Origin: Modestobacter italicus
GTDB taxonomy: Bacteria; Actinomycetota; Actinomycetes; Mycobacteriales; Geodermatophilaceae
Assembly: GCF_000306785.1 (NCBI RefSeq)
Contig: NC_017955.1
Span: forward strand, 3,968,001-4,032,000
Length of the DNA: 64,000 bases
Direction of reading: 5' to 3'
The position numbers and the translations under genes were made by a program. Positions 2,528 to 7,466 of the stretch are shown one piece after another. Every line of letters begins with the position of its first letter. Positions within the stretch are counted from its first letter, which is position 1. The notes beneath the pieces are model-generated. The model was not told the origin of the DNA and made no database searches. It saw only the letters and a program-made list of their open reading frames with translations.

Positions 2528-3475
2528 TCAGCTGCCCTCGGCCGCGCCCGCCCGCCAGTAGCCCATGAACGCCACGGACGAGCGCGGGACGCCGAGGTCC
2601 CGGACGAGCCGGCGGCGCAGCGCCTTGACCATCCCGGCCTCGCCGGCCAGCCAGGCGTAGCAGCCGTCGGCACCGGTCTCCGGCACCTCCCACAGGATGC
2701 CGCCGGTGAGGTCGACGTCCTCCGGCTCGACGCCGGCGGCCGCTGCCGCGACGCCCAGCTCGCACAGGGCGGCGTGCACCGCGGGACCGAGGGCCTCGCC
2801 GCGGGCCCGGGAGCCGCGGATCAGCCAGCGGACCTCGACGCCGGGCGGGACGGCGAGGGAGAGCACGTCCCCGGCCTCGGGGACCTCGAGGACGGCGACC
2901 GCCCGGCGACCCGCGGGCAGCGCCTCGACGATGGCGCTGATCGCCGGGACGGCGGTCTCGTCGCCGGCGAGGAACAGGGTGCCCTCGGCGGGCGGCGCCC
3001 ACTCGACTCCCCACGCGCGACCGGTGCCGGGCCGGTCGGGCCCGAGGAGCACGACCGGGTCGCCGGCGACGGCGGCGGCCGCCCAGCTGGCGGCGGGGCC
3101 GGGGCGGCCGTCCTCGACGCCGTGCAGCACCAGGTCGACGTCGAGCTCGCCGAGCTGCGGCCGGGCCGCGCGCACGGTGTAGGTGCGCAGGAACGGGCGC
3201 ACGGAGTCGGGCAGCGCGCAGTACTCCTGGTACCAGCCCGGGCCGTCGGAGAGCAGCTGCCGGACCGGCCCGCCGTCGCGGGAGAGCACCAGCTTGATCC
3301 GCTGGTCGGCGCCCCCGACGCCGAAGCCGGTGAGCTCCGGACCGGCGACGGTCAGCCGCAGGAAGCTGGGGCTCAGCCGCTGGACCCGGGTGACCCGGGC
3401 GGAGAAGAAGCGGTACGACGGCGCAGCGGGCTCGACCAGCGGGGGCGCGGGCCGTGCGGTGGTGGCCGTCGTCAT
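2528..3475 (-). CDS. Siderophore-interacting FAD-binding protein (ferric-siderophore reductase type)
   Basis: This 315-residue protein is a member of the siderophore-interacting protein (SIP/ViuB) family, cytoplasmic flavoproteins that reduce ferric siderophores with NAD(P)H to release iron. Visible features are the FAD-binding barrel with RFFSARVTRVQRLSPSFLRL and the RTYTVRAAR segment (residues ~105-115, the RxYTxR flavin motif). Then come GDETAVPAISAIVEAL (~195-210) and the C-terminal SSVAFMGYWRAG motif. The ATG at 3475 was chosen over one 11 codons upstream. An iron-box-like dyad lies 52-68 bases upstream of this ATG, implying repression by an IdeR/DmdR-type regulator when iron is replete. 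The vsr pseudogene lies upstream on the same strand. Confidence 0.88.
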   Translation of the reverse strand: MTTATTARPAPPLVEPAAPSYRFFSARVTRVQRLSPSFLRLTVAGPELTGFGVGGADQRIKLVLSRDGGPVRQLLSDGPGWYQEYCALPDSVRPFLRTYTVRAARPQLGELDVDLVLHGVEDGRPGPAASWAAAAVAGDPVVLLGPDRPGTGRAWGVEWAPPAEGTLFLAGDETAVPAISAIVEALPAGRRAVAVLEVPEAGDVLSLAVPPGVEVRWLIRGSRARGEALGPAVHAALCELGVAAAAAGVEPEDVDLTGGILWEVPETGADGCYAWLAGEAGMVKALRRRLVRDLGVPRSSVAFMGYWRAGAAEGS

Positions 3476-3526
3476 CGCGGGTCTCCCGGGGTTCAGCGTG
3501 ACCGGCACGGGCGCGACCGGACGTTG

Positions 3527-3543
3527 GTGAGGCTAGCCTAACC
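3527..3543 (-). promoter_or_regulatory. Iron-box-like operator upstream of siderophore-interacting gene
   Basis: The 17 bases GTGAGGCTAGCCTAACC contain the perfect palindrome AGGCTAGCCT and resemble the actinobacterial IdeR/DmdR iron box built from TTAGG-type half sites. One flank (CTAAC) matches better than the other. It sits 52 bases upstream of the siderophore-interacting protein start, a sensible operator position. Regulation by iron is inferred from motif and context. Confidence 0.5.
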
Positions 3544-3581
3544 AGCACGCCGAAGGGAATGGCCGCCCCCGGACGGGCTGC

Positions 3582-4023
3582 TCAGCGGGCGAGCTCCGCG
3601 CAGATCGCGTCGGCCACCGCGTCGGGGTCCTCGTGCTCCCAGAACCGCAGCACCCGCCAGCCGAGGCCGGTGAGCACGCCGTCGGTGCGCCGGTCACGCG
3701 CGACGTTGGCGGCCAGCTTGGCTGCCCTCGGCCCCTCTGCAGGGGCCCGCCGCGAGCCTGCGAGCGGTGGGGGGCAGAGGGGTCCTTCGTCCGTCGATGA
3801 AGACGACCAGCTTGCGTCGCTTCCAGACGATGTCGCCGCGGGCGCGGGTCTCCCGGCAGGGGCGGACGTCAACGCGGTAGCGGACGCCGCGGGCGTGCAG
3901 CCGCCGGCGGACCGCCAGCTCCGGCACGGTGTCGCGGCGCCCCTGCCGGCGGAAGCGGGCCCGCACCGTCGCGGATGACGGGGCGGGGGCCAGCCGCAGG
4001 TCGACGGCGGCCTCCCCGCTCAT
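3582..4023 (-). pseudogene. vsr: Disrupted very-short-patch-repair-type endonuclease gene
   Basis: The frame starting at the ATG at 4023 reads as the N-terminal half of a Vsr-like endonuclease. It has RRDTVPELAVRRRLHARG, then RGDIVWKRRKLVVFIDG, which holds the catalytic-domain Asp strand. The C-terminal half, AAKLAANVARDRRTDGVLTG through VLRFWEHE, is present in a different frame further along. The expected middle, which in Vsr proteins carries the zinc-binding and catalytic CFWHGCPEH block, is absent. In its place is a palindromic element at 3730-3785 that also changes the frame. The ATG overlaps the stop of the helicase gene upstream (ATGA), so the two were one operon. As written it cannot encode an active nuclease. 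Confidence 0.75.
3730..3785. repeat. Palindromic element inside vsr
   Basis: About 56 bases are bounded by the inverted repeat CCCCTCTGC (3732-3740) and GCAGAGGGG (3774-3782), with further GCGAGC/GCTCGC repeats inside. It can fold into a long hairpin and looks like a REP- or MITE-type intergenic palindrome. It occupies the place of the Vsr active-site codons and shifts the frame. I found no second full copy in this window. Confidence 0.55.
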
Positions 4024-7000
4024 CCGCCGACGGTCTCCAACGCGGGCGCGGTGGCCGTCTCGACCAGCCGGCACAGGCCGTTGACCAGGCGGAGCTGCTC
4101 CGGCGTCTGCACCGGGGAGGTGAGCAGTGCGGGGCTGCCGACCAGGTAGGCGACGGTCTTGGCGCGGGACAGCGCGACGTTGAGCCGGTGCCGGTCGAGC
4201 AGGAAGTCCAGCCGGCGCGGCACGTGCGCACCGCTGGAGGCGGCCAGCGAGAAGACCGCGACCGCAGCCTCCCGGCCCTGGAACTTGTCCACCGTGCCCA
4301 CCTCGACCGCACCGAGCCCGACCGCGGCCAGCGCGCCGCGCACCTGGTTGACCTGCGCGTTGTACGGCGTCACCACCAGCACGTCGGCCGGGCCCATGAC
4401 CCGGTCGACCCCGCCGCCGTGCCAGGAGCAGCCCATCAGGTCGCCCACCAGCGCGGCGACCACGGCCGCCTCCTCGGCGGAGGCCGCGCCGTTGCCCTCG
4501 TGCTCCACCGGCACCCAGCCGATGCCCGCCGGCGCCGCCCAGCGCGCCGGTGCGTCCAGCCGGTTGCCGGCCGTGACCGGTGAAGGCTGCAGCTCGCCCC
4601 GGTAGGAGAGCGCGGAGACGACCCGGCAGAGCGCCGGTGCCATCCGCCAGCTGCGGTCGAGGAAGACGCCGCGGTCGGCCGGGAGCACCTCGTCGTCGCC
4701 TAGCACGTGCTGCAGCGCGGAGACGTCGGCGCCGTCGGGGTGGATGCCCTTGCCGGGCTGGCGCAGCTGCTGCGGGTCACCGAGGAGCACCAGGTTGGTC
4801 GCGGCCCGGCTCACCGCCAAGGCGTTGGCCAGCGAGAGCTGGCCGGCCTCGTCGACGACCAGCACGTCGAGCCGGCCGGCCAGCTCGGGCCGGGCGAACA
4901 GCCAGGAGGTGCCGGCGACCAGGTCGACGTCACCGGCGTCGAGCGCGTCGACGACCTGGCCGTTGCTGCCCACGCACTGCACGTCCGCGTCGCTGCAGCG
5001 CTGCAGGTCGTCGGCCTTCTGCAGGGCGCGGACCGGCACGCCGGCCTCGCGGGCGGCCGCCATCACCGCGTCGAGCAGGTTGCCGATCACCTTGTGGCTG
5101 GAGGCGGTGACCCCGACCCGCTTCCCGGCGCGCACCAGGTCCACGACCGCGCGCGCCCCGGTGTGGGTCTTGCCGGCGCCGGGCGGGCCCTGCACCGCGA
5201 GCACGCCGCCGTCCAGCAGCCCGGCGAGCCGGCGGACGGCGTCCGCCGCACCCTCCCCCGCCTCCCGCACCGGCACGCCGGCCGGCTTTCGCGGGGGGCG
5301 GCGGAGCAGCAGGTCGCGGGCCGCCCGCAGCGGCCCCGGGCCGTCGATGCCGCCGGCGGCCACCTGCTCGCCGAGGTCGTGCAGCACCGCGCGGAAGACC
5401 TTGTCGCTGGGCGGGGACGTGGGCAGCAGCCCGGTCGGGTGCTCGAGGCCCGCCGCGCTCCGGCGGGCCAGCACCACCCAGCCCGCGGTGGGGTCGACGT
5501 CGACGACGGAGCTGGTGAGCCGGCGGCCGTCGGCGGTGGGCAGCAGGTGCTCCAGCCGGTTGCCGGCCGACGCCTTGGTCTCCTGCGGCGGGAAGCGGTA
5601 GCGCCAGTGCTGGGAGCCGCGGTCCGCACCGACCAGCTCCGGCGCCTCCAGCGGGCCGAGGGCGGCGGTCTCCCGCTCGAGCTCGTCGGCCGGGAGGTCG
5701 CGGAGCCGGAAGTACTCCCACCAGGCCGACCGGGCCTCGCGGGCGTGCCACCCCAGCTGCTGGGCCAGCAGCCAGGTCGCCTGCTGCTCCGCGGTGCGGC
5801 CGGTGTCGGGGAGGTCGGCGGTGAGCCGCTCCTCGAGCCCCTCGCGCAGCTGCTGGGCCGCGGCGTTCTCCGCCGACCCCTCCGGGTCGCCGTCCTCCGG
5901 GCGGCGCAGCAGCGCACCGGAGGCCAGCAGCTCGGTGCGGCGGGCCTCCAGCCAGTCGCGCAGCTCGCGGGTGGAGACGCAGTCGTCGCGGTTGTAGGCC
6001 TCGATCTGGTCCAGCAGCGTCTGGTCGCGGGTGGCCAGCCAGCGCTCGAAGGCGACGATGCTCTCCCCGGCGTCGGAGACCTCCGCGCCGTGGGCCCGGA
6101 CGTGCCCGCGGTAGTAGTCCTCGACCTGCTTGATCGAGTACGACTCCTTGCTCAGCCGCAGGCCCTGGCGGACCACGGCGTACAGGTCGACGAGCACGTC
6201 GGCGCGGAGCAGCCGGTCGACCTCGGCCTCCCGGGTGCGCAGCCGCGCGGACAGGGTCTTCAGCCGGGTCGGCTCGTAGGGCGCGTAGTGGAAGACGTGC
6301 ATCGTCGGGTCGGCGGCGTGGGCAGCGCAGAGGTGGTCGACGAGCTGCTCGAAGGCGGCGCGCTCGGCGGCAGACTGGTCCTGCGCCGCCGGGTCGCAGC
6401 CCCAGAAGGCGGTGAACTCCCCTGCGGTGTCCAGCACGCCCCACAGGTACTCGAGCCCCGCGTCGCCGGCGAACGGGTCGCCCTCGATGTCGAAGAAGAG
6501 GTCGCCGGCGCTGGGCGGGGGCAGCAGCTCGAACCCCCGGCCGTGCTCGCGGGCCAGGAACTCGTAGGACGGCACCCCGCTGGCCCGCTCGGCCAGCTGC
6601 AGCCGGGCCTGCTGGGTCAGGCGCTCGCGCGAGCTCCGGCCGATCGCGTCGGGCAGCTCCTCGGGCCGCCGGGTGCCCAGCGCGGCCACCGTCGGGATGC
6701 CGGCCTCGACCAGCGCCGTGGCGTGGTCCCGCCGCATCGAGGCCACCAGCGACAGCGAGTCCTCCTCCCGCCAGCGGGCGGTGCAGGTCTCCCGCCACGG
6801 GCAGACGCCGCAGTGCGCGTTGGGGTAGGGCGCGGCCAGCTCGCCGTCGGCCAGCCGCTCGAGGAACCGGGCCCGGGCGGTGCGGGTGTAGGCCTCGGCG
6901 TCGGCGTAGCGGAACACCAGCTCCTGCTGGTCGCCGGTGACCACGGTGAGCAGCTCCGGCGGCACGCCCTGCAGCCCGGCGAGCAGGTCGCCGTAGAGCG

Positions 7001-7466
7001 CCATCTGCAGCAGGGCCGGGACCTTGATCCGGCGGGCGAGCTTGGTGTCGGCGACGTCGTAGGCCCACGGCCCGAGGTCGCTGGGGCGCTCGGTGCGGAG
7101 CAGGAAGTCGGCGTGCCCGCGCCAGGTGCCGTCGAAGAAGGTGGCCTGGTAGACGACGTCGACCCCCGCGCGCATGGCGGCGAGCGTGTCGGCCTGGGCC
7201 TGGCGCAGCGCGGCGGCGTCCTTGCCGCGCGGGCCGACGATCTCCACGACCGACAGCCCCCGGTCGCGCAGCCGCTGCACGTGCCGCGCCTCGTGGTCGA
7301 TGCCGTGCCGGGCGACCAGCTCGGTCATCGGGTCGGTGGCGGTGGGCCTCGGCCGCTCGCCGCGGGCCACCTCCAGCGACAGCCGGGTCAGGTGCTCGCA
7401 CTCCAGGAACCCGGTGAGGTCGCCGGCGCTGACGACCAGCCCGGTGTCGGACACGTACACGGCCAC
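4020..7466 (-). CDS. TM0106-family RecB-like nuclease / SF1 helicase
   Basis: This 1148-residue multi-domain protein starts with GTG. At the N-terminus is a RecB/Cas4-like nuclease module. It has Cys23 in FLECEHLTR and the CGVCPWRETC cluster near 216-225, together four cysteines suited to a 4Fe-4S cluster, plus GHADFLLR and YDVADTKLAR, which look like the PD-(D/E)xK acidic/Lys residues. Around 323 is an RNase-H-like segment, DLFFDIEGDPF. The C-terminal half is a superfamily-1 helicase: Walker A GPPGAGKTHTGA (~760), Walker B VVDEAGQLSL (~870), LLGDPQQLRQP, and the late motifs VDKFQGREAAVAVFS and LNVALSRAKT. It probably processes DNA ends in repair or defence. The vsr gene begins in its stop codon. 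Confidence 0.85.
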   Translation of the reverse strand: MAVYVSDTGLVVSAGDLTGFLECEHLTRLSLEVARGERPRPTATDPMTELVARHGIDHEARHVQRLRDRGLSVVEIVGPRGKDAAALRQAQADTLAAMRAGVDVVYQATFFDGTWRGHADFLLRTERPSDLGPWAYDVADTKLARRIKVPALLQMALYGDLLAGLQGVPPELLTVVTGDQQELVFRYADAEAYTRTARARFLERLADGELAAPYPNAHCGVCPWRETCTARWREEDSLSLVASMRRDHATALVEAGIPTVAALGTRRPEELPDAIGRSSRERLTQQARLQLAERASGVPSYEFLAREHGRGFELLPPPSAGDLFFDIEGDPFAGDAGLEYLWGVLDTAGEFTAFWGCDPAAQDQSAAERAAFEQLVDHLCAAHAADPTMHVFHYAPYEPTRLKTLSARLRTREAEVDRLLRADVLVDLYAVVRQGLRLSKESYSIKQVEDYYRGHVRAHGAEVSDAGESIVAFERWLATRDQTLLDQIEAYNRDDCVSTRELRDWLEARRTELLASGALLRRPEDGDPEGSAENAAAQQLREGLEERLTADLPDTGRTAEQQATWLLAQQLGWHAREARSAWWEYFRLRDLPADELERETAALGPLEAPELVGADRGSQHWRYRFPPQETKASAGNRLEHLLPTADGRRLTSSVVDVDPTAGWVVLARRSAAGLEHPTGLLPTSPPSDKVFRAVLHDLGEQVAAGGIDGPGPLRAARDLLLRRPPRKPAGVPVREAGEGAADAVRRLAGLLDGGVLAVQGPPGAGKTHTGARAVVDLVRAGKRVGVTASSHKVIGNLLDAVMAAAREAGVPVRALQKADDLQRCSDADVQCVGSNGQVVDALDAGDVDLVAGTSWLFARPELAGRLDVLVVDEAGQLSLANALAVSRAATNLVLLGDPQQLRQPGKGIHPDGADVSALQHVLGDDEVLPADRGVFLDRSWRMAPALCRVVSALSYRGELQPSPVTAGNRLDAPARWAAPAGIGWVPVEHEGNGAASAEEAAVVAALVGDLMGCSWHGGGVDRVMGPADVLVVTPYNAQVNQVRGALAAVGLGAVEVGTVDKFQGREAAVAVFSLAASSGAHVPRRLDFLLDRHRLNVALSRAKTVAYLVGSPALLTSPVQTPEQLRLVNGLCRLVETATAPALETVGG

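Follow-up and report, generated by a model that had tools for sequence, protein, structure and literature searches.

Short dispersed palindromes that lie mostly just 3′ of genes, and sometimes inside them and in frame, have been described as CGTC-tagged REPs and as RPE-4/6; in the excerpt of that account used here, a dedicated transposase is not known for these elements, and copies inside genes are reported to be frequent in those for DNA replication and repair (PMC3733652, in part). The characteristics of RPEs are summarised in PMC10969869 (likewise an excerpt). We have compared with these systems a palindrome that lies inside a vsr gene of Modestobacter italicus, within a stretch of 64,000 nt (NC_017955.1, positions 3,968,001 to 4,032,000) referred to here as the window. 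In the reading that we regard as probable, a hairpin repeat that belongs to the REP/RPE-like palindromes and occurs family-wide has repeatedly inactivated this type of vsr gene, and the damaged allele was spread among species by recombination.

The disrupted vsr gene occupies positions 3582–4023 of the window on the minus strand (ATG at 4021–4023). Its 5′ remnant (3791–4023, minus strand; MSGEAAVDL...VVFIDG) matches Pfam Vsr (PF03852) with 35.3 bits against a cut-off of 27, as well as positions 9–65 of TIGR00632. The 3′ remnant (3582–3727, minus strand; AAKLAANVARDRRTDGVLTGLGWRVLRFWEHEDPDAVADAICAELAR), which reads from AAKLAANVARD onward in a different frame, matches TIGR00632 positions 89–119, and the stretch of the profile missing between the two is the core. 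Both remnants were also delimited by alignment, the 5′ part with seven intact congeners. The TIGR00632 scores of the two parts (37.5 and 31.1 bits) are each below the full-length cut-off of 97.85, which vsr of the intact congener L041 exceeds with 115 bits. The profile matches of its remaining parts indicate that the window gene is, by descent, a member of the Vsr family; it resembles the Vsr mismatch endonuclease (TIGR00632/PF03852) on both flanks and differs from it in being out of frame and without the core.

At the corresponding place, the sequence in intact Modestobacter vsr genes is VF(I/V)DGCFWHACPxCGHxP...ANVARD or a near variant. The codons of the CFWHxCPxCGH core, whose residues we take to be the catalytic His and the zinc ligands after E. 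coli Vsr, are kept in all seven intact congeners and missing from the window gene in the alignment. We recognized a functional Vsr by an Asp plus His/Cys core (FxDGCFWHxCPxC) in a single open frame, a combination absent from the window copy; with the core lost, this gene would not be expected to give a working Vsr nuclease. In place of the core lies a foreign stretch of 63 nt (3728–3790, minus strand), where intact relatives have 56–59 nt of coding core (CFWHACPTCGH...). This stretch holds a 58-nt repeat copy (AAGGACC...GGCC; 3730–3787, minus strand; strict family pattern at 3730–3785) with two 9-bp arms, CCCCTCTGC (3732–3740) and GCAGAGGGG (3774–3782), not assigned to a strand, which form a perfect inverted repeat with 33 nt between them. 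This structure is not due to chance: for a 26-base piece, shuffles of the window give an expectation of 0 matches, the element recurs in the genome (see below), and four further species share the structure and its junctions. Alignment with L041 gives 59 nt out and 63 nt in, a net gain of 4 nt that changes the frame. A preliminary description of the window had claimed readable Vsr flanks on both sides, substitution of the core block by an element with 9-bp inverted repeats, and a frame change, all of which we could confirm; its figure of about 56 bases was right as to a palindromic replacement and wrong as to exact size, the unit being 58 nt in a foreign stretch of ~63 nt. Presumably the repeat copy replaced the active-site codons, bringing in 63 nt at the cost of about 59, and a further small deletion in the window allele may then have shifted the frame.

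Directly upstream lies the gene of a TM0106-family RecB-like nuclease/helicase (4020–7466, minus strand; TIGR03491 with 263.8 bits, AAA_11/AAA_12 and RNase_H_2). Since its stop codon (TGA, 4020–4022) overlaps the vsr start codon, the two genes are adjacent and probably coupled. Such coupling had been proposed before; it is made probable in the window by the overlap and is not valid in Geodermatophilus, since only one of 30 vsr loci read outside Modestobacter has the helicase within its fetched flanks (L284, Goekera). Among PADLOC models, MkoA matches the window helicase with 145 bits (best over residues 936–1128), and a defence role would be conceivable. Between vsr and a siderophore-interacting protein gene (2528–3508) there is a 20-bp near-palindrome, TGGTGAGGCTAGCCTAACCA (3525–3544), which in our view resembles the IdeR/DmdR iron box consensus. 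A profile search found one other PF03852 match in the genome, a separate Vsr gene with an open frame (L033; C1:4120202–4120387; 63.7 bits), and this second Vsr may buffer the loss of the window gene. At the level of this profile, the search therefore spoke against a silent intact core kept elsewhere in the genome.

The palindrome in the window belongs to a hairpin repeat that is dispersed through genomes of the Geodermatophilaceae, a family of soil bacteria. In the genome to which the window belongs (G000; 5.58 Mb, single contig), at least 41 matches to the element were found, its own copy included (40 of 151 first-look candidates scored), and a strict 56-nt pattern gave 75 copies there and 66, 31, 36 and 37 in four congeners; the reversed pattern, used as a control, gave none. 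A strict-pattern search of drawn genomes detected the repeat in 93 of 106 Geodermatophilaceae genomes, in nine of 12 genera, and outside the family as a single match in one of 72 genomes of the order; the relatives compared below are from Modestobacter, Geodermatophilus and Goekera. At the left edge of the repeat the consensus is a stop codon followed by N and GAAGGACC. An Rfam scan of six loci returned three matches, none at the element and all below gathering scores, and no earlier account of this repeat was found in Rfam or in the full-text literature (subscription papers mostly outside its scope), so that the family is apparently undescribed so far. We rejected the idea that repeats multiply once vsr is broken, strict copies numbering 75, 66, 31, 36 and 37 in the genomes with the repeat in vsr against 83, 39, 89, 81, 53, 75 and 31 in those with an intact gene. 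At two loci (L224 and L246) a full element lies right behind the relic of another element's 5′ end, and at a third (L266) two full copies stand in tandem, arrangements that suggest element-on-element copying.

Mutual information among 70 copies was strongest at the nested column pairs 6-52 to 11-47 and at the inner pairs 19-36 to 22-33, and all but one of the top ten column pairs were nested stem pairs. At the outer variable pairs, 399 of 420 cells hold standard base pairs (shuffle mean 290, maximum 311), and at the inner variable pairs 251 of 280 (shuffle mean 196, maximum 209). Such compensatory pairing could result either from selection for the hairpin or from arm-to-arm correction of quasi-palindromes. 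Folded as RNA, the window copy has an MFE of −35.1 kcal/mol (z −2.26), modestly better than shuffles; folded as DNA, it has a z of −1.90.

The genome search for further palindromes that the preliminary description had recommended proved informative as to their location, too. A stop-codon test, which covered 70 copies out of the strict set of 75 in G000, placed 60 of them 0–8 nt behind a stop that ends a GC3-rich frame of the same strand, in 39 cases with a TGA 4 nt before GGACC; 58 of the 70 lie no more than 5 nt behind a stop, compared with 86 of 10,000 random window positions. Inspection by eye of the ten copies that failed the test showed three whose stop lies where expected but whose frame test had failed, four that are intergenic or behind a relic, and one that extends the C-terminus of a gene; only 2/70 are interior, one in vsr and one in a GlmL-family gene. 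In G008, 32 of the 41 copies examined (strict total 66; its vsr copy left out of the set) pass the test, and of the other nine, judged by eye, none is interior. The copies directly behind stops, on the coding strand, would probably serve as 3′-end or terminator hairpins, to judge from their sequence context; they have the hairpin and the behind-stop position of an intrinsic terminator, though no T run followed the copies inspected, a set that did not take in L017.

At these gene ends the repeat turns over fast between species. For ten gene-end copies of G000, all 30 orthologous sites in G008, G003 and G001 could be located and compared, with 87–98% identity in the matched upstream stretches. 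Among the four species the element was present, absent, inverted, exchanged for another hairpin, or changed in both arms together. One gene-end site (L005) shows a clean insertion directly after the TGA, and no target-site duplication is evident at this, the one clean insertion looked at. At another gene end (L004), three related species carry other hairpin-like sequences in the place of the repeat (L165, L167 and L176), as if 3′ hairpins were interchangeable cassettes at gene ends. The repeat would thus be copied and exchanged between sites quickly.

How, then, does the family relate to the described systems? Like the CGTC-tagged REPs and RPEs, as far as the excerpt of PMC3733652 describes them, the Geodermatophilaceae repeat lies mostly behind genes and has some interior in-frame copies, namely those in the GlmL-family gene (6/6 carriers) and in vsr of G008, L292, L297, L298 and L299. 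It differs from what that excerpt describes in its longer unit (56–63 nt) with an outer and an inner stem, in its actinobacterial host family, and in that it replaces codons in vsr rather than merely inserting. The position of the unpaired CGTC tag (GACGAAGGACC, CGTC on the other strand) fits 18 of 70 copies and the rest vary; we therefore regard these systems as the closest known ones and do not assign the repeat to them. GTAG REPs are likewise abundant palindromes near gene 3′ ends, but in the present repeat a GTAG tag is not constant (5/70 copies show GTAG close to the left edge), and Y1_Tnp (PF01797, RAYT) gave no match in the G000 genome and matches in five of 14 control genomes. A RAYT/Y1 transposase was accordingly rejected as the mover, and identity with GTAG REPs was ruled out by the tag and the missing Y1 transposase. 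MITEs, too, are small non-coding palindromic elements that spread and are able to inactivate genes, but for the present repeat a partner transposase was not found in a search confined to the Y1 family.

The second interior copy in G000 lies in the GlmL-family gene (L214, C1:238406–238461). Comparison with L232–L241 showed the repeat there in six of 11 Modestobacter genomes (G000, G001, G002, G003, G017 and G018), in frame in all six, while it is absent from four and G008 has an apparent short scar. The distribution is scattered across the genus, as it is at vsr. Here the repeat is a nearly pure insertion, with a net gain of 45 to 57 nt; together with the clean insertion at the gene end L005, this rules out equal-length replacement as a family-wide rule.

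In Modestobacter, this vsr gene was found beside the helicase in 12 of 23 genomes, and eight of the 23, some of them incomplete, gave no PF03852 match. Alignment of the genes beside the helicase, also recommended beforehand, showed seven intact alleles (G001, G002, G003, G006, G009, G015 and G016) and five with the element at the same place and with the same junctions (G000, G008, G017, G018 and G019). In G008, 62 nt have come in for 56 nt (net +6), and the gene reads through the element in one open frame; an in-frame TGA interrupts that of G018 at the left junction, and G000, G017 and G019 are frameshifted. The chance that this structure is an assembly or sequencing artefact is negligible, since it recurs in five separately assembled genomes (including JHVP01000001 and NZ_JAPVBJ010000012).

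The carriers belong to two clades of the genus, A (G000 and G008) and B (G017, G018 and G019), and a single clade of all five was rejected on rpoB (p 1e-44), on the helicase (p 3e-4) and on the vsr flanks (p 7e-5). The rpoB tree joins carriers with non-carriers, G019 with the intact G002 (99/98) and G017 with the intact G016 (100/100); the minimum number of state changes is four on the helicase tree and three on the vsr-flank tree. The flank tree pairs G000 with G008 (90/90, not strongly), a grouping that the helicase rejects (p 0.0085), and this discordance suggests allele transfer; rpoB does not reject the clade A carriers as one clade (p 0.076). For the three clade B carriers, rpoB and the helicase reject a single clade and the vsr flanks do not (p 0.19). 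Since the carriers are not one clade though the allele is the same, it was most likely passed among the five species by homologous recombination. Thus, the recombination suspected in the preliminary description finds support as regards the spread of the allele, its carriers being polyphyletic on all three trees despite shared junctions. As to the targeted swap likewise suspected there, the at least seven placements in this vsr type (see below), against 2/70 interior copies in G000, make it conceivable. The replaced allele would have at least two separate histories, one per clade, with short-tract recombination between clades A and B. With the codons of the core gone, only recombination with another copy can restore an intact allele.

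Alternatively, the same junctions could have arisen separately in the two clades, the site being recognised by the repeat, and we consider such independent targeted insertion unlikely. It would account for carriers in two clades whose vsr flanks differ (dS about 0.5–0.6 between clades A and B) and whose flank trees reject one clade, and for the difference between the clade A and clade B elements, which consists of one compensated pair (C-G to T-A in clade B) and one loop base; moreover, a paralogous copy in G008 (C3:111693) is only one base different from the vsr copy. There is no excess likeness of the close vsr flanks between clade A and clade B carriers. The left and right junctions, however, agree within one or two bases, the copies are of the same variable-arm type and differ at only 3/56 positions (G018 additionally being without one C), and one event followed by transfer is simpler.

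Transfer of a replaced allele is also to be viewed against the state of the vsr flanks. Within the Modestobacter clades, dN/dS of the carrier flanks is about 0.08–0.34, and the pair G000–G008 gives 0.014/0.121 and 0.036/0.105, as low as for intact pairs. Such low values, which are unlike those of old dead genes and count against the preferred reading, could mean that the losses are recent or came by transfer, or else that the protein retains some role and still works in its altered form.

Outside Modestobacter, the N-terminal part of Vsr was searched for in 75 of the 84 Geodermatophilaceae genomes of other genera (the nine left out are all without the repeat). Matches were found in 49 of the 75, and 30 loci were taken for reading: 19 chosen first, comprising the strongest matches and shortened ones in one genus (g5), and the remaining 11 read afterwards. 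The 19 loci are of the present vsr type; eight have the CFWH core, eight the repeat, and three are damaged without the repeat (L286, L289 and L295; internal deletion, frameshift, lost C-terminus). At L296 the core is kept with Tyr for one Cys. The other 11 loci are of other Vsr types, and all have an open CFWH core and no repeat. With Modestobacter included, the repeat is present in 13 of the 31 alleles read that belong to this type, and in none of the 11 of other types.

Including the one in Modestobacter, there are at least seven placements of the repeat in this vsr type, all with loss of vsr codons, and the repeat would have entered the gene independently at the six in Geodermatophilus. It replaces the core in frame at L292 (65 nt in, 68 nt out) and VWKGRR...CPACG in frame at L297 (64 in, 73 out). 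In L298, L299 and L308, it has the opposite orientation and replaces ~22 codons before GCFWHGCP, with loss of the FLDG aspartate (65 in, 71 out). At L291 it follows GCF with a TGA (66 in, 15 out) and at L302 it follows GVRYR with a TGA (about 86 in, 117 out); at L300 it lies in opposite orientation at the edge of a large deletion (about 109 in, 205 out, from a weak alignment). A near-equal swap rather than an insertion, as first described, is thus correct for the window and three further placements (L292, L297 and that shared by L298, L299 and L308), and not for L291, L300 and L302. The placement shared by three loci is again scattered over non-sister alleles, L298 being closer to the intact L287 (dS 0.20) than to its co-carriers L299 and L308. 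Flank dN/dS of these three is 0.14–0.17 at dS 0.39–0.55 (L285 was left out of this comparison, its 3′ motif not being found).

Repeated loss of this kind could be neutral decay, in which a dispensable vsr gene tolerates the damage wherever a randomly landing repeat happens to cause it, with no attraction to the gene. We hold this to be a real possibility, if somewhat less than likely. It agrees with the three of 19 alleles outside Modestobacter that are damaged without the element, with the eight Modestobacter genomes, some incomplete, that give no PF03852 match, and with the frameshifts or stop in carriers G000, G017, G018 and G019. Many accessory genes should be just as dispensable, however, and yet at least seven placements in this one 440-bp gene stand against interior copies of 2/70 in G000 and 0/41 in G008 and against the absence of the repeat from the 11 loci of other Vsr types, an estimate that suggests a strong local excess at vsr; flank dN/dS near 0.15 in the alleles of a single placement (L298, L299 and L308, at the dS given above) also speaks against it.

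A different view is that the chimeric Vsr still works, in a new, non-nicking role, with the repeat, like the Rickettsia palindromic elements, adding a peptide in frame. The frame is indeed open through the element in G008, L292, L297, L298 and L299, the flank dN/dS is low, and the GlmL-family gene keeps its frame in every carrier. By translation, five of the seven placements keep the frame (p about 0.045 under random frame), L291 among them with a stop at the junction and L300 being out of frame. The alignment had given six of seven, and a frame-preserving rule at vsr was rejected as only marginal: with L291 counted as not open, the figure falls to 4/7 (p about 0.17). Furthermore, four of the five Modestobacter carriers are broken, and what is missing is either the Asp or the His/Cys core. 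On balance we find a working chimeric protein rather improbable.

Still more speculatively, vsr could be a preferred landing site that the repeat disarms time after time, in many cases with an in-frame protein left that is dead as a nuclease. Vsr might nick mismatched hairpin or heteroduplex intermediates of repeat copying, and replacements of its catalytic centre would then be favoured. We think it quite improbable that such a conflict took place; if it did, the absence of the repeat from the 11 genes of other Vsr types would mean that only this Vsr lineage acts on the repeat. As to how the repeat, in our preferred reading of repeated inactivation followed by recombinational spread, came to be copied into vsr, we tentatively propose that a break or fork was repaired by new synthesis or by template switching and that target DNA was lost in the process, the likeliest route in our view, though at somewhat less than even odds. 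Against the preferred reading as a whole, neither a transposase (Y1 family searched) nor an intermediate was identified.

What is new here is apparently a family-wide, covarying hairpin repeat whose usual home is directly behind stop codons. Its gene-end copies may represent a portable 3′-end signal that is swapped as a cassette. At vsr, it provides a clear natural case of a single DNA-repair gene that such repeats have hit several times in two genera, in or next to the catalytic centre. The excerpted account of the CGTC REPs and RPEs (PMC3733652) has already suggested that palindromic repeats do not occur in repair genes by accident, and in the form in which that excerpt puts it, the suggestion becomes testable in close Modestobacter species pairs with and without the vsr replacement.
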